From Nocardioides sp. R-C-SC26 (GTDB taxonomy: Bacteria; Actinomycetota; Actinomycetes; Propionibacteriales; Nocardioidaceae): a stretch of 64,000 bases of DNA. The translations under genes were made by a program, and so were the position numbers. This document shows, piece after piece, positions 33,408 to 59,040 of this stretch (positions within the stretch are counted from its first letter, which is position 1; each line of letters starts with the position of its first letter). The stretch spans positions 1 to 64,000 of the forward strand of contig NZ_JAHRHK010000017.1 in NCBI RefSeq assembly GCF_021246465.1, written 5' to 3'. The notes beneath the pieces are model-generated. The model did not search any database and was not told the DNA's origin. It saw only the letters and a program-made list of their open reading frames with translations.

Positions 33408-34418
33408 GTGCCGTCGACGTCCGGGGAGTCCCGCGTGTGGACCCCGGCCTGGCCCTGCCCGGCGGTCGCGATCGCGCATCAGCACCGCCGCGGTCGAGGA
33501 GATCCCACCTTCCGCGTCACGCCCGACGGCGCGGTGTGGCGCGGACTGCAGACGCCGGAGGGCCCCGCGACGCTCCGGCTCCTCTCGTCGGTGCGTTCGC
33601 CGTCGCCAGCGGACGTCGCGTCGCCGACCGTCGAGGCCCACGCCTGGGGTGCGGGGGCGGCCTGGGCTCTGGCGCAGGTGCCGGAGCTTCTCGGCGAGCG
33701 CGACGACGTCAGCGGGTTCGAGCCGCGCCACGAGTTGATCGTGGATCTGTGGCGGCGCTTCCGTCATCTACGCCTCGGCCGTAACGGCCAGGTGTTCCAG
33801 TCGCTGCTCCCGACGATCATCGAGCAGAAGGTGACCGGCCAGGAGGCGTTCGCGGGGTACCGGATGCTCGTCCAGCGCTTCGGCGAGACGGCGCCCGGTC
33901 TGCACGCCGTCGAGCTGGGGCTCCGGGTGCCCCCGACCGCCGAGGTCGTCGCGCAGGTGCCGTCCTGGGAATGGCTGCGCATGCACATCGATCCGGCGAG
34001 GTCGCGGACGATCGTCGGCGCCGCGCGGGTGGCCCCGAGCCTGGAGCGACTGCTGAGCCGGCCTCCCGAGGAAGCGGACCGTGCGTTGCGGTCGCTGCCG
34101 GGGATCGGGGAGTGGACCAGCGCCGAGGTCCGCCAGCGCGCGTGGGGTGACGCGGACGCCGTCTCCTTCGGGGACTATCACGTGGCGAAGAACATCGGCT
34201 GGGCGTTGACCGGTCGGGCCTTCGACGACGTCGAGCTCGCCCGCCATCTGGAGTCGTGGCGACCGCACCGCGGGAGGATCCAGCTGTTGATCGCAGCCGC
34301 AAGGCTCGGCCCGCCGCGGCACGGTGCGCGGATGGCCCCGCGCACCCATCTACCCGCCACCGTCGTTCCGCGAGGTCGGCCCGGCGGAGGACACGCGTCA
34401 AATGCTACGCGCGAGTAA
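33408..34418 (+). CDS. DNA-3-methyladenine glycosylase II-like (AlkA/HhH-GPD) protein
   Basis: A 336-aa base-excision repair glycosylase. The HhH-GPD core starts near residue 125 (FQSLLPTIIEQKVTGQEA), has the helix-hairpin-helix LPGIGEWTSAEV near 229 and the catalytic-Asp region GDADAVSFGDYHVAK near 245. The N-terminal 120 residues are a separate, less conserved domain. GTG 33408 is supported by a -10 box 6 nt upstream; the long open frame from 32694 is antisense to the hydratase and is rejected. The C-terminal tail is basic. Confidence 0.82.
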   Translation: MPSTSGESRVWTPAWPCPAVAIAHQHRRGRGDPTFRVTPDGAVWRGLQTPEGPATLRLLSSVRSPSPADVASPTVEAHAWGAGAAWALAQVPELLGERDDVSGFEPRHELIVDLWRRFRHLRLGRNGQVFQSLLPTIIEQKVTGQEAFAGYRMLVQRFGETAPGLHAVELGLRVPPTAEVVAQVPSWEWLRMHIDPARSRTIVGAARVAPSLERLLSRPPEEADRALRSLPGIGEWTSAEVRQRAWGDADAVSFGDYHVAKNIGWALTGRAFDDVELARHLESWRPHRGRIQLLIAAARLGPPRHGARMAPRTHLPATVVPRGRPGGGHASNATRE

Positions 34419-34455
34419 CTATTTGTCGGGCAACGCTGTCCAGCGCCCCGGTCGA

Positions 34456-34471
34456 TGTGATACCTGTAACA
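34456..34471. promoter_or_regulatory. CRP/GlxR-like site upstream of the mce operon (one mismatch)
   Basis: TGTGATACCTGTAACA differs from TGTGA-N6-TCACA at one base and lies 106 bp before the first yrbE start. The surrounding 16-mer GTGATACCTGTAACAC is palindromic at 12 of 16 positions. Confidence 0.45.
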
Positions 34472-34576
34472 CCTGTCGCGGCATGTGACACAGACCACGG
34501 ATCACCCCCATCTGAACCGAGGCCTCATGGGATTCTGTTTCGGCGCGCCTGGATCGGCCGTCTTGAGGAGGCGCGC

Positions 34577-35404
34577 ATGAGCGCGATCTCCGCCTCCGCC
34601 CGTGCCACCGTGGGGTCGCTCTCGGGTCGCGCGCGCGGCTCGGTGATGACGACCGGCAAGCTGCTGATGCTCGCCGCCGAGGCCACGCAGTGCGCCGTGA
34701 CCGACATCGCCACGCGCCGCTTCTCCTGGAGCGAGTTCCTGCTCCAGGCGTGGTTCATGACCCGGGTCTCGTTGCTCCCGACGATCCTGGTCGCCATCCC
34801 GTTCGGTGTGATCACCTCGGTCCAGATCGGCGCGGTCGCGGGCCAGATCGGCGCGACCTCGTTCACCGGCGCCGTCAACGGCATCGGTGTGCTGCGTCAG
34901 GGCGCGCCTCTGGTCACCTCGCTGATGATCGCCGGCGCCGTCGGTTCGGCGATCTGCTCCGATCTCGGCGCCCGTCAGGTCCGCGAGGAGATCGACGCGC
35001 TGCGCGTGATGGGGATCAATCCGGTGCAGCGACTCGTGGCTCCTCGCGTCGTCGCCGCGCTCGTCGTCGCGCTCCTGCTCACGGTCATCGTCGCGATGAC
35101 GGCCATGCTGACCTCGTTCGTCATGAACGTCGGCAACGGCACGACGTCGGCGGGGACGTTCATCAATGCCTTCACCAGCTTCAGTCAGACCTCGGACTTC
35201 TTCCTCGCCGAGTTCAAGGCGCTCGTGTTCGGGTTCATCGCCACGATCGTGGCGGCGCACAAGGGTCTGAGCGCCTCGGGTGGTCCCAAGGGTGTGGCGG
35301 ACGCCGTGAACCAGGCGGTCGTGTTGAGCGTGATCCTGCTGGCCTTCGCCAACGTCGCGATCACCCAGGCCTACGTGATGATCGTGCCGCAGGGGGTCGC
35401 ATGA
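34577..35404 (+). CDS. yrbEA: Mce-associated permease YrbEA (MlaE family)
   Basis: A 275-aa membrane permease, the first of two channel subunits of an Mce lipid importer. The family core is seen: VITSVQIGAVAGQIGA, LGARQVREEIDALRVMGINPVQRL (the EExDAL loop that contacts the MlaF/MceG-type ATPase) and several hydrophobic helices. ATG 34577 follows TTGAGGAGG; ATG 34646 is an alternative. It heads the mce operon. The ATPase (MceG) is not in the window, as usual for actinobacteria. Its TGA overlaps the ATG of a small repeat-built ORF. Confidence 0.93.
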   Translation: MSAISASARATVGSLSGRARGSVMTTGKLLMLAAEATQCAVTDIATRRFSWSEFLLQAWFMTRVSLLPTILVAIPFGVITSVQIGAVAGQIGATSFTGAVNGIGVLRQGAPLVTSLMIAGAVGSAICSDLGARQVREEIDALRVMGINPVQRLVAPRVVAALVVALLLTVIVAMTAMLTSFVMNVGNGTTSAGTFINAFTSFSQTSDFFLAEFKALVFGFIATIVAAHKGLSASGGPKGVADAVNQAVVLSVILLAFANVAITQAYVMIVPQGVA

Positions 35405-35613
35405 ACACCCCACGGCCTTCGTCGCTTCCCCCGCTTCGCTCCTCCGCGAACAAGCCCGCAGGGACCCCGGTATCCACCCCACGGCCTTCTTCGCTTCCCC
35501 CGCTTCGCTCCTCCGCGAACAAGCCCGCAGGGACCCCGGTATCCACCCCACGGCCTTCTTCGCTTCCCCCGCTTCGCTCCTCCGCGAACAAGCCCGCAGG
35601 GACCCCGGCATGA
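35401..35613 (+). CDS. 70-codon ORF made of three 23-aa repeats between yrbEA and yrbEB
   Basis: An open frame whose ATG overlaps the yrbEA stop (ATGA) and whose TGA overlaps the yrbEB start (ATGA). It is composed almost wholly of three copies of PRPSSLPPLRSSANKPAGTP separated by VST. The repeat unit is 69 bp, a multiple of 3, so copy number can change without breaking the frame. No membrane segment or known motif. It may be a non-functional insertion that keeps ribosomes moving from yrbEA to yrbEB. Protein production is unproven. Confidence 0.3.
   Translation: MNTPRPSSLPPLRSSANKPAGTPVSTPRPSSLPPLRSSANKPAGTPVSTPRPSSLPPLRSSANKPAGTPA
35411..35609. repeat. Tandem repeat, 69-bp unit, three copies
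   Basis: Copies begin at 35411, 35480 and 35549 (the last one truncated to about 61 bp). The only internal difference I see is one substitution in copy 1 (CTTCGTCGC instead of CTTCTTCGC). The copies are directly abutting with no spacers. The block separates two genes that normally overlap or nearly touch in mce operons. Confidence 0.95.
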
Positions 35614-36449
35614 GCATGATCGGCAACGCCGTCCTGCGCGGCACCGACGGCCTGCTGGGCGGCCTCGCGAAGTTCGGGTCGTTCCTGACGTTCGCGTGGA
35701 TCACGCTGCGCGCCATCCCATCGACGATGCGGCTCTATCCCTCGGAGATGCTGCGCCAGCTCAAGGACATCGCCTGGGGCAGCGGCGCGATCATCGTCGG
35801 CGGCGGCACCGTCGGCGTGATGGTGCTGCTCTCGCTGTCGGCGGGCACCTCGCTCGGCATCGAGGGCTTCAACGGCCTCGAGCTCGTCGGACTGGCTCCG
35901 CTCACCGGTTTCATCTCCGCGAGCGTCAACACCCGTGAGCTCGCTCCGCTGATCGCCGCCCTGGCGCTCGGGGCCCAGGTCGGGTGCCGCTTCACCGCTC
36001 AGCTCGGCTCGATGAAGATCCACGAGGAGGTCGACGCCCTCGAGGTGATGGCGGTCAGCCCGATGCGCTACCTGGTGGCCACCCGCGTGGTCGCCTGCAT
36101 GCTGGCGATCCTGCCGCTCTACCTCGTCGGCCTGATCGGTTCCTACCTCGCCTCGCAAGGCTCGGTGGTGCTGCTCTTCGGGCAGTCACCAGGCCAGTAC
36201 GACCACTACTTCTCCACCTTCGTCGCGTTGCGCGACATCATCCTGTCGGTCGTGAAGATCCTGATCTTCGCCATCGTCGTCACGTTGATCCACTGCTGGT
36301 ACGGCCTGCAGGTGGGAGGCGGCCCGCAGGCCGTCGGCGAGGCGACGGGGACGGCGATCCGCGCCAGCATCGTGGCGGTCGTCGTGCTCAACATGATCCT
36401 GACGCTCCTGTTCTGGGGCGGCGATCCAGGCTTCCGGGTCTCGGGCTGA
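35610..36449 (+). CDS. yrbEB: Mce-associated permease YrbEB (MlaE family)
   Basis: A 279-aa second permease subunit. It contains the MlaE-type loop HEEVDALEVMAVSPMRYLVATR and about five hydrophobic helices, with GLQVGGGPQAVGEATGTAIR near the C-terminus as in YrbEB proteins. ATG 35610 (ATGA overlap with the repeat ORF) has AGGGA 8 nt upstream; ATG 35616 is possible. It should dimerise with YrbEA under the Mce protein tube. Confidence 0.93.
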   Translation: MSMIGNAVLRGTDGLLGGLAKFGSFLTFAWITLRAIPSTMRLYPSEMLRQLKDIAWGSGAIIVGGGTVGVMVLLSLSAGTSLGIEGFNGLELVGLAPLTGFISASVNTRELAPLIAALALGAQVGCRFTAQLGSMKIHEEVDALEVMAVSPMRYLVATRVVACMLAILPLYLVGLIGSYLASQGSVVLLFGQSPGQYDHYFSTFVALRDIILSVVKILIFAIVVTLIHCWYGLQVGGGPQAVGEATGTAIRASIVAVVVLNMILTLLFWGGDPGFRVSG

Positions 36450-36459
36450 GGTGGGTGTG

Positions 36460-37548
36460 ATGGCGAATCGACGACGATCCGCGCCGCGCAAGGAGTTGCG
36501 TCGCATCGACCTGGCCCGCCGAGGACTCGCGGGCATCGTGGTGATCGCGGTCCTGCTGACCCTGGTCTTCCTGCGCAGCGGCGGCGCCTTCGGCGGCGAC
36601 CCCGAGGTCACCGCGGACGTCCGCAACGCCGGCGGCGCCTTGCGGGTCGGCTCGGACGTCAAGGTGGCCGGCGTCATCGTGGGCCGCGTGGGCGGCATCC
36701 AGCGCGGCGGCGACAACGGCGTCCGTCTGGATCTGAGGATCGCTCCGGAGGACCTGGAGAGCATCCCCGGCAACGTGGAGGCCCGGATCCTGCCGGCCAC
36801 GGTCTTCGGAACGACGTTCGTCGACCTGGTCGTCAACGGCACCGCCTCGACCACGTCGTTGAAGGACGGCGCGCAGATCCCGGCGGACCAGAGCCAAGGG
36901 ACCCTGGAGCTGCAGCAGGCGCTCGACGACCTCGACCGCCTCGTGACGGCCCTCGGGCCCGCGGAGTTGAATCGCGCCGTGTCCGCGCTCGCGACCGCCG
37001 TCGAGGGTCGGGGGAGGGCGCTCGGTGAGATGCTCGAGACCGCCGACACCTACCTCGGACGACTCGAGCCGGAGCTGCCGCTGGTTCGCAGCGACCTCAG
37101 AGCGCTGGCCGACAACCTGGAGGTCGTCGACGAGATCGCCCCCGACCTGCTCACGGCGACCGACGACGTGCTGGTGACGATGCAGACGATCGTGGCGCAG
37201 CGTGCCTCGATCACGGCGCTGATCACCGGCAGCACGACACTGCTGCGCGACACCGACGACCTGCTCTCGGCCAACGAGCAGAAGGTCGTGCGCTTCCTGC
37301 GCAACGGCGCGATCCTCCTCGACATCCTCTACGACAACCGCGACCGGTTGGCCTCGGGCATCCGGACCAACATCGCGGTCGGGACCAAGCTGCCCACCGC
37401 CATCCGCGGATTCCTGCGCTCGGACTCCAACTTCATGGGCAACGTGCCGCCGTTCTACACCGAGGCCGAACGACCCGACTACGGACCGCCGTCCCCGCTC
37501 GTGCAGGCGACGCTGCGCGGCTACGCGCGACAGGAGAGCCGCCGATGA
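36460..37548 (+). CDS. mceA: Mce family protein, MceA position
   Basis: A 362-aa extracytoplasmic Mce/MlaD protein: one N-terminal anchor helix (GLAGIVVIAVLLTLVFLRSGG), the MlaD domain (residues about 40-120; VRNAGGALRVGSDVKVAGVIVGRVGGI), then a long helical region that builds the lipid tunnel. ATG 36460 is preferred over GTG 36451/36457 because GAGGTGGG lies just upstream. It overlaps the next gene by ATGA. Transported lipid unknown; sterol is a candidate given the steroid genes in the window. Confidence 0.92.
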   Translation: MANRRRSAPRKELRRIDLARRGLAGIVVIAVLLTLVFLRSGGAFGGDPEVTADVRNAGGALRVGSDVKVAGVIVGRVGGIQRGGDNGVRLDLRIAPEDLESIPGNVEARILPATVFGTTFVDLVVNGTASTTSLKDGAQIPADQSQGTLELQQALDDLDRLVTALGPAELNRAVSALATAVEGRGRALGEMLETADTYLGRLEPELPLVRSDLRALADNLEVVDEIAPDLLTATDDVLVTMQTIVAQRASITALITGSTTLLRDTDDLLSANEQKVVRFLRNGAILLDILYDNRDRLASGIRTNIAVGTKLPTAIRGFLRSDSNFMGNVPPFYTEAERPDYGPPSPLVQATLRGYARQESRR

Positions 37549-38552
37549 CCGGGCTGCGTTCGATCGCCGTCAAGTTCGCGCTCTTCGCGCTGGTGAGCCT
37601 CCTGCTGGCGATGCTGCTGCTGAACACCATGCGCAACGGACTGCCCGACTCCGGGCGGGAGTTCCGCGCTGAGTTCACCGATGTCAGCGGGCTCCGGGTC
37701 GGCGACGACGTCAAGGTCGCCGGCGTGCGCGTCGGCAGGGTGACCGGGATCGAGGTCACCGAGGAGGGCGCGGACGTCGCGTTCGAGCTCGCCGACCAGC
37801 AGCCCCTGCTGGACTCCACGCGCCTGGTCATGCGCTACCAGAACCTCCTCGGCCAGCGGTACCTCTCGCTCGTCCAGGGCGAGGACCGTGGCGCGGAGCT
37901 CGAGGCCGGCGCCACGCTGCCGACAGAGCGCACGGACGCGGGCTTCGACCTCACGGTGCTCCTCAACGGGTTCCGGCCGCTGTTCGAGGTGCTCCAGCCC
38001 GACGACGTGAACCGGTTGGCCACGTCAATCGTCCAGGTCCTCCAGGGTGAGGGCGGCACGGTCGAGTCGCTCCTGCAGGAGACGACCCAGCTGACCACCT
38101 TCCTGGCCGAGCGAGACGACCTCTTCGGCGACGTCATCGACAACCTGGTCCCGGTGCTCGACAACCTCTCCGACCAGGACGGCGAGATCACCTCCACCGT
38201 CCAGGAACTGCGTGCTCTGATGGACGGACTGGCGCGCGATCGACAGTCGATCGGCGATTCGATCGACGGCGTCAGCCAGCTCGTCGGGGCGACCTCGGAC
38301 TTCCTGGCCGAGGTTCGCCGCCCGACCGTCGCCACGCTCGGGGAGCTGCGCGAGGTGGCGGCGATCGCCTCCGACTCCCGACAGCGGCTCAACCAGGCGC
38401 TCCGCGGCTTCGGCCAGGTCTTCGAGGCCTTGGGGCGGTCCGGTTCCTACGAGAGCGCGTTGAACGTCTATCCCTGCTCGTTCCTGCTCGTCCTCGGCAG
38501 TCGAATCGTCAATCCGGCAGGGAACCCGCGGTACTCGGAGGTGTGCAGCTGA
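37545..38552 (+). CDS. mceB: Mce family protein, MceB position
   Basis: A 335-aa Mce protein with an N-terminal helix (FALFALVSLLLAMLLLNTMR), an MlaD domain (FTDVSGLRVGDDVKVAGVRVGRVTGI) and a helical tail that ends in a short Cys-containing segment (YPCSFLLVLG...SEVCS). It is the second of six consecutive mce genes, with ATG overlapping the mceA stop. Expected to assemble as one of six different subunits of the tunnel. Confidence 0.92.
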   Translation: MTGLRSIAVKFALFALVSLLLAMLLLNTMRNGLPDSGREFRAEFTDVSGLRVGDDVKVAGVRVGRVTGIEVTEEGADVAFELADQQPLLDSTRLVMRYQNLLGQRYLSLVQGEDRGAELEAGATLPTERTDAGFDLTVLLNGFRPLFEVLQPDDVNRLATSIVQVLQGEGGTVESLLQETTQLTTFLAERDDLFGDVIDNLVPVLDNLSDQDGEITSTVQELRALMDGLARDRQSIGDSIDGVSQLVGATSDFLAEVRRPTVATLGELREVAAIASDSRQRLNQALRGFGQVFEALGRSGSYESALNVYPCSFLLVLGSRIVNPAGNPRYSEVCS

Positions 38553-58284: not shown

Positions 58285-59040
58285 TGTTGACCGTGGACTT
58301 CGACCGCCTGGGCCTGCGTGCCGGCGACCGCATCCTCGACATGGGCTGTGGCGGCGGACGCCATGCGTTCGAGGCCTACCGACGTGGCGCCGACGTCGTG
58401 GCCTTCGACATGGACGCCGACGAGCTCGCCGGCGTGCTCGAGCTCTTCGGCGCGATGAAGGAGGCCGGCGAGGTGCCCGAGGGCGCCTCGGCCGACATCA
58501 AGCAGGGCGACGCCCTCGCGCTGCCCTTCGGCGACGGCGAGTTCGACCGGATCGTGGCCGCGGAGGTGCTCGAGCACATCTGGGCCGACGTCGACGCCAT
58601 CAAGGAGCTCGTGCGGGTGCTGCGACCCGGCGGCACGCTGGCCATCACGGTGCCGCGTTGGTTCCCCGAGGTCGTGAACTGGAAGCTGTCGGCCGACTAC
58701 CACAACGCGCCCGGCGGTCACATCCGGATCTACACCGACCACGAGTTGATCGACAAGGTCACCAAGGCCGGGGCGCCCAACGACGGCACCGCGGGCACGG
58801 CGATGATCTTCGAGGGCAAGGACTACGCCCACGGGCTGCACGCGCCGTACTGGTGGATCAAGTGCGCGGTGGGTGTCGAGAACGACGAGCACCCGGCAGC
58901 GAAGGCGTACCACAAGCTGCTGGTGTGGGAGATCATGAAGCAGCCTCGTGCCCTGCGGCTGGCGAGCAAGGTGCTCGACCCGGTGATCGGCAAGAGCATG
59001 GTGCTGTACTTCCGCAAGCCGATCTCGGCGCCGGAGCGCG

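Follow-up and report, generated by a model that had tools for sequence, protein, structure and literature searches.

A probable mobile, MIRU-like hairpin element at stop/start overlaps of Nocardioides genes, present as a triple repeat between yrbEA and yrbEB

Background

The closest described counterparts of the repeat reported here are the MIRUs of mycobacteria, which, according to the summary in PMC12548453 (citing Supply 1997), appear to be mobile, insert at start codons, carry an internal frame coupled at -4 nt and probably have little effect on host genes. In H37Rv, senX3-regX3 harbors a MIRU array of three identical 77-bp units (PMC4213456). The Rickettsia palindromic elements (RPE), of about 150 bp, keep the frame with host genes and encode a conserved peptide, nearly half of them lying inside genes (PMC10969869). 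REPs are described as small imperfect hairpins in many copies, some of them near stop codons, and GTAG REPs as often providing the TAG stop to flanking frames (PMC3733652, PMC12306157).

The locus studied here lies in a window of 64,000 nucleotides from Nocardioides sp. R-C-SC26, in which three 69-bp units (35406-35611) separate two MlaE/YrbE permease genes of a mce operon. We propose with good confidence that this array is a local triplication of a mobile, MIRU-like hairpin element whose insertion sites are NTGA stop/start overlaps, mostly ATGA, and that a small frame within it relays translational coupling. The triple repeat is one site of a dispersed family and not a private tandem repeat. 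Like MIRUs, most copies of the element are found, in sequence form, at a stop/start overlap with an internal frame at -4 nt, and tandem arrays are present at some sites. The differences are that the element occurs in other bacteria, that its core is mostly 63-66 bp or about 47 bp long, and that it has a covarying one-strand hairpin with a GCGNAGC cap and uses three reading frames. MIRUs are not known to have dyad symmetry. In its description the element looks built to work like a MIRU.

As a palindromic element that keeps the frame with host genes it also resembles RPE, but it is found between genes and no one peptide is conserved, with three sites showing fusion to a protein end. With the REP/BIME/RAYT systems it shares small, imperfect, multicopy hairpins near stop codons, and it differs from them by the absence of a GTAG/CGTC end tag, by a Y1 transposase count of 0/98 genomes, and by stop/start overlap sites at which the frame is kept. 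The element is not a REP/RAYT by tag or enzyme, nor an RPE by site or peptide. No description of it, or of such repeats in Nocardioides, was found in the titles and abstract beginnings of the literature searched.

The array and its neighbours in the mce operon

The features of the region are the following.

34577..35404, + strand: yrbEA, upstream MlaE/YrbE permease gene of the mce operon, with its TGA stop inside ATGA (Pfam PF02405 MlaE, E 7.9e-61)
35401..35404, + strand: first ATGA, stop of yrbEA and start of the relay frame (from the sequence; same form at other sites)
35401..35613, + strand: relay open reading frame of 70 codons, open across the three units (from the sequence)
35406..35474, + strand: unit 1, hairpin element core (35406-35469) plus GTATC (model R1 match 35404-35471, - strand)
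35475..35543, + strand: unit 2, element core plus GTATC (model R1 match 35473-35540, - strand)
35544..35611, + strand: unit 3, element core, then GCATGA (model R1 match 35542-35609, - strand)
35610..35613, + strand: second ATGA, stop of the relay frame and start of yrbEB (from the sequence)
35610..36449, + strand: yrbEB, downstream MlaE/YrbE permease gene (Pfam PF02405 MlaE, E 5.9e-61)
36451..38552, + strand: first two downstream mce genes, given as context (Pfam MlaD and Mce4_CUP1)

An initial annotation of the window had described three nearly identical 69-bp units between the permease genes, of a length divisible by three, and a 70-codon frame that is open throughout and overlaps both neighbours by ATGA. 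All of this was borne out. Tandem Repeats Finder ranked the array first among seven tandem-repeat rows of the window (period 69, 2.9 copies, 35406-35608, score 399, the next score being 71), with 99% matches and 0% indels; unit 1 differs from unit 2 at 1/69 bases and unit 2 from unit 3 at 1/68. The relay frame comprises 70 codons and a stop, and shares one ATGA with yrbEA (35401-35404) and the other with yrbEB (35610-35613). The distance from ATGA to ATGA, 209, equals 2 mod 3, and the frame is thereby kept. Inside the array GTATC takes the place of the ATGA, with a period of 69, and the frame therefore reads through, unlike two other arrays of this genome (contigs C21 and C1), in which the inner ATGA is present. 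The three units probably arose from one copy by local duplication; their number rests on the assembly, since the window is part of a draft of 106 contigs.

The array had no match in Rfam when positions 34300-36700 were scanned, the one match obtained lying elsewhere and below the gathering score. Three more ATGA overlaps of the same mce operon, at 37545, 40596 and 41780, are element-free. A weaker tandem repeat, with period 27, two copies and 82% matches, is found at 58369-58422.

Copies in Nocardioides and relatives

The initial annotation had suggested looking for the 69-bp unit elsewhere in the genome. With a one-unit DNA query, 11 full copies were found at seven junctions of the R-C-SC26 genome, and a covariance model also gave 11. 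Three are on contig C24, two on C21, two on C1 together with a partial copy, and one each on C27, C49, C2 and C35, the last with a partial copy; the DNA query also detected a decayed copy on C75. All 11 copies carry the arm signature NCC/GCC, compared with 1/101 copies from other genomes (L036), and because of this common signature they probably spread within their own lineage.

The family is widespread in the genus. The DNA query matches 68/98 genomes, and the covariance model R1 71/98 (E <= 1e-5), both counts including our genome. With at most 52 candidates scored per genome, R1 gives from 1 to at least 48 matches per positive genome and at least 657 in all 98; 18/98 genomes have 15 or more. 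In named genomes, a pattern scan yielded 82 stretches, of which 80 were used (L172 and L173 were left out); among the 80 listed, 71 have Nocardioides titles and the other nine are from Pimelobacter (three), Aeromicrobium terrae (two), Marmoricola, a Nocardioidaceae, a Propionibacteriales and an Actinomycetota bacterium. A profile HMM run on the collected loci produced 136 matches, 127 of them nearly full length, and 112 copies were retained after removing repeats with the same flanks, tandem neighbours being kept. Only 14 of the 112 have another full copy within 30 bp. Tandem arrays include those of the window, of C21 and C1 in the same genome, and one in G302, a genome of another family. The dispersed copies in the own and congeneric genomes support the second proposal of the initial annotation, that of a recently inserted and still spreading repeat family, and the element probably moves, or has moved, as a unit.

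A subfamily, seen in locus L171 (5422-5490 and 7506-7574), retains both ends and the GCGNAGC centre but has another sequence in mid-stem; a copy in L208 looks similar. L208 has a second element copy at 279-343, some 1.1 kb upstream of its copy at the ABC junction described below.

Position at stop/start junctions

Most elements occupy the space between a TGA stop, which they follow directly, and the next start, often as ATGA-element-ATGA. Just upstream of 93/112 copies a same-strand frame with 60 or more open codons comes to its stop, within 6 nt in 91 of the 93, and 82/112 copies also precede a same-strand start, counts that rest on open frames, an open frame being no proof of a gene. This does not fit a merely REP-like repeat in many intergenic sites without coding context, which the initial annotation had considered as well. 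The upstream stop is TGA in 90 of the 93 cases, in the form ATGA (67), GTGA (16), CTGA (6) or TTGA (1). A downstream start on the same strand is found within 40 nt of 98/112 copies; 19/112 have no upstream stop nearby and 3/112 have neither stop nor start. Stops were found in sense for 92/111 copies versus 7/111 in antisense, the antisense control having a longer reach and a stricter length. The spacing between TGA and core varies from 1 to 6 nucleotides.

At 69 sites the flanking NTGA pair could be read as ATGA/ATGA (43), ATGA/GTGA (7), GTGA/ATGA (6), GTGA/TTGA (3) or others (10). The two tetranucleotides are unlike at some sites, so that strict target duplication is unproven and a plain target-site duplication for all copies is not upheld. 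The element is comparable to MITEs in its non-autonomous size, its inverted symmetry (an imperfect palindrome) and the frequent ATGA direct repeat at both ends: ATGA stands on both sides at 43/69 sites and empty sites mostly have a single NTGA, while at other sites the two tetranucleotides differ. It departs from MITEs in that the target is largely one tetranucleotide, used in a fixed orientation; a parent insertion sequence was sought by PF01797 alone, and none was found.

Empty and filled sites

None of 29 other orthologous yrbEA-yrbEB junctions (68-83% identity) has the unit, as judged by eye and by HMM. The statement of the initial annotation that these permease genes normally touch holds for most of the 29, many of which overlap as TGATG or NTGA, but some have a short spacer; TGATG or a spacer is mostly found there rather than ATGA. 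In the closest relative (L063, G056:C83) an unrelated 17-bp tandem unit ending in GCATGA occupies the same junction, which implies that the yrbEA-yrbEB junction expands in more than one way.

Two further junctions were surveyed. At an ABC permease/ATPase junction, which by eye we take to be hmuUV, 30 of 35 matches were read. The site is empty in 26/30 loci, with one ATGA in 17, one GTGA in 5 and a TGATG type in 4 (by eye), and filled in 4/30, a set with which the HMM agrees. In L204 and L208 the element is bracketed by two ATGA, against a single NTGA in relatives. At the R-C-SC26 locus (L228) one copy has ATGA on either side and another, a partial one, runs into the ATPase frame, and L231 (G067) is filled with no second ATGA, the element frame reading into the ATPase. 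On the ATPase tree, four changes between filled and empty states are needed (bootstrap range 3-4), two of them forced by well-supported branches, and the filled label is no more clustered than when shuffled. At the second junction, presumably proteasome prcB/prcA as recognised by eye, R-C-SC26 is the sole filled case among 30 loci read (97 genomes matching).

Some copies are joined in frame to host proteins, as a C-terminal tail in L002 (contig C1 of R-C-SC26) and as N-terminal extensions of the ABC ATPase in L228 (C35 of the same genome) and L231 (G067). Judging from the sequences of these three fusion sites, the elements appear to seed new protein ends.

Maintenance of the reading frame

An open frame with start and stop is present at most junction sites. 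The first NTG is in frame with the second TGA at 54/60 long-form sites flanked by NTGA on both sides, and at 43/49 when similar downstream genes are merged. Descent alone could explain why the commonest architecture is in frame. Among the other architectures 20/26 are in frame (binomial versus one third, p = 7e-6), and when each distinct type of leader, length and trailer is counted once the figure is 11/17 (p = 0.008), which is the fairest one if a single founder architecture was copied.

The same DNA is placed in three frames, which encode three unrelated types of peptide, by leaders of 1, 2 or 3 nt that mostly go with trailers of 1, 0 or 2 nt respectively. The leader classes (mod 3) hold 37, 10 and 7 of the 54 in-frame sites, and this use of three frames indicates that openness and phase are kept, and not a peptide. 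The mRNA strand is free of stop triplets in 108/111 copies versus 93% of shuffles, which is hardly beyond composition. Codon wobble was rejected as the cause of the variable base of GCTNCGC, because all three leader classes show variation of this base at their in-frame sites (T20 C14 G3; T7 C3; T2 C2 G3).

These observations are compatible with the following mechanism. The element would most likely be placed at NTGA, on one strand and with a single orientation; an NTGA would then flank it on either side, so that each gene would retain its own stop or start. Each copy would put roughly 50-75 bp between the upstream stop and the downstream gene (209 bp in the window). Stop triplets are rare in the element on the mRNA strand, and the inserted length leaves the second TGA in the frame set by the first ATG. 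Ribosomes that terminate on yrbEA could therefore reinitiate at the ATG overlapping its stop, translate the 70 codons and terminate again on the start codon ATG of yrbEB. The relay frame, which we presume to be translated, would thus restore termination-reinitiation, and the element would carry its own tolerance. With so many model matches in the genus and empty sites in relatives, termination-reinitiation and the tolerance of spacing and frame become testable by comparison.

Hairpin structure

In alignment A1 (66 copies chosen from 103 distinct cores), 92.3% of the cells of the hairpin are paired, whereas slid structures give 42-58%. Double changes affect 11 pairs and 121 cells, compared with 6.8 and 40.3 after shuffling, and 0/500 shuffles reach these values. 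Pairing extends into the flanks: leader -1 and trailer +1 are complementary in 80/109 copies (shuffled mean 28), -2/+2 in 43/109 and -6/+6 in 48/109 (shuffled mean 29), all above shuffles, while -3 to -5 are not above them.

The stem on the mRNA (top) strand contains 207 A.C/C.A cells versus 8 G.T/T.G, an excess which indicates that the well-pairing strand is the opposite one. The DNA folding energy is lower on that strand in 111/111 copies, and for 40 sampled copies the RNA folding energy averages -30.9 there versus -19.1 on the mRNA strand. Unit 2 of the window, folded as DNA, has z +0.34 on the + (mRNA) strand, with 128/200 shuffles as good, and z -2.79 on the - strand, with 0/200 as good. 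Four copies folded as mRNA-strand RNA gave z -4.65 and -4.25, which beat nearly all shuffles, and -1.47 and -1.54.

A G-G mismatch is conserved at columns 22 and 55, and the conserved ends of the element are CGGGG(T/C)CCCC and GGGGTG. On the strand opposite the mRNA, the centre of the loop is GCGNAGC in 111/112 copies of the main set, with one exception, the second copy of L095. The pattern that supplied loci L092-L171 fixed most of GCTNCGC, and recounts were therefore made for ascertainment: GCTNCGC is present in 41/41 copies from loci found by DNA similarity alone (N: T29, C9, G3) and in 78/78 outside the pattern scan (N: T50, C14, G13, A1), part of the 78 having been found by R1, whose training set included pattern-found copies. 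Very stable DNA mini-hairpins are reported for GNA loops closed by two or more G-C pairs (PMC4686876). The structure data favour folded single-stranded DNA as the selected form, and the folded strand opposite the mRNA may be the mobile form; an antisense RNA could also have been selected.

Alternative explanations

Three near-identical tandem units, of a length that keeps the frame at any copy number, could constitute a contingency locus at which slippage alters the copy number and hence the ratio or amount of the two permeases, as in the phase- or dose-variation device put forward in the initial annotation. No on/off switching would be expected of it, because any copy number keeps the frame. 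Moreover, 98/112 copies have no second full copy within 30 bp and the 29 other orthologous junctions are free of the unit, so that no support was obtained for such a device, which we regard as highly improbable. A hairpin selected for regulation, whether it acts on the mRNA (through stability, stalling of ribosomes near the stop or attenuation) or serves as a promoter of the downstream gene, would agree with the strong covarying stem within a few nt of stops and with the good folding of two of four copies as mRNA-strand RNA. REPs less than 16 nt from a stop have been reported to lower translation (PMC12306157), and the MIRU arrays of senX3-regX3 to drive regX3 (PMC4213456). However, the stem is poorer on the mRNA strand, as seen in the mismatch counts, in all 111 copies folded and in the window unit; the sites are patchy among orthologues; and a search of 35200-35800 found no terminator and no promoter of the sigma-70-like type, the only promoter type sought. 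Regulation is thus unlikely as the reason for the family, and a simple mRNA hairpin or terminator is disfavoured on the same grounds of poorer stem and lack of a terminator, despite the two copies that fold well. A family of small protein genes, in which the encoded peptide is the conserved thing, could account for the open frame with start and stop at most junctions, but the peptides of the three frames are unrelated and the changes follow base pairing, so a conserved small protein was rejected as scarcely credible.

With regard to mobility, Y1 HUH enzymes use a strand-specific hairpin, a mismatch and a tetranucleotide in fixed orientation beside the hairpin. The strand-specific hairpin of our element, its G-G mismatch and its fixed orientation to the adjacent tetranucleotide would suit a REP or IS200-605 type, moved by a RAYT or TnpA acting on one strand. 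Against this, PF01797 (Y1) was detected in 0/98 genomes of the genus while 5/14 control genomes were positive, and the conserved ends lack the GTAG or CGTC tag (tags as given in PMC3733652), which makes such an enzyme very unlikely here. It is also conceivable that nothing was transposed, and that junctions expand by local duplication, with the likeness between sites due to conversion or chance. The different 17-bp tandem of the closest relative at the same junction and the near-identical neighbours within arrays elsewhere speak for it, but the same core, with like ends, is found at unrelated junctions of many genomes, and the empty sites mostly have a single NTGA. For the family as a whole, local duplication is contradicted by the dispersed copies and barely deserves belief, although it is still likely for the step from one copy to three in the window. 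Insertion of a mobile hairpin element at stop/start overlaps is therefore the explanation we prefer.

Short form and distribution across the class

When R1 was applied to 296 genomes of the class, 20 matched: 13 of the own family, one of another family (G302) and six with weak single matches. G302 has five copies, including an array read with ATGA at each joint. The six weak matches proved to be a short form of about 51 bp. A second model, R2, built from these six genomes, matches 36/296 class genomes in 11 families, a count in which the six source genomes match by construction, G302 and several matches of the own genus represent the long form, and the E-values are rough. Single R2 matches in families f19 and f34 were left out of the reading.

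Of the 42 short-form copies that were read, 28, from six families (f1, f9, f10, f12, f15 and f36), lie between an upstream stop and a downstream start, and 14 lack one or both; junction sites of the long form add one more family, f39. All short-form copies with NTGA at both ends (20/20) are in frame. The three copies read in f21, counted among the 14, are not at stop/start junctions. A phylum-wide pattern scan for the short form was negative (0/396 genomes), whereas the covariance model on the class did find it.

The junctions read in these families suggest that the MIRU way of life extends well outside mycobacteria, and that mobile DNA finds a niche in the 4-nt stop/start overlaps of GC-rich bacteria. 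More tentatively, and with somewhat less than even confidence, the long and short forms may belong to an actinobacterial superfamily spanning several families, which would move as a folded single DNA strand opposite the mRNA with a GNA mini-hairpin cap and be placed at NTGA overlaps by an enzyme other than a known Y1 HUH transposase, translational coupling acting as a safe harbour.

In two families, the short form precedes a frame starting with MIQQES or VIQQES (L252 of G201 and L266 of G222). By eye we take this frame to be ribosomal protein L14, and the site to be a probable ribosomal protein operon.
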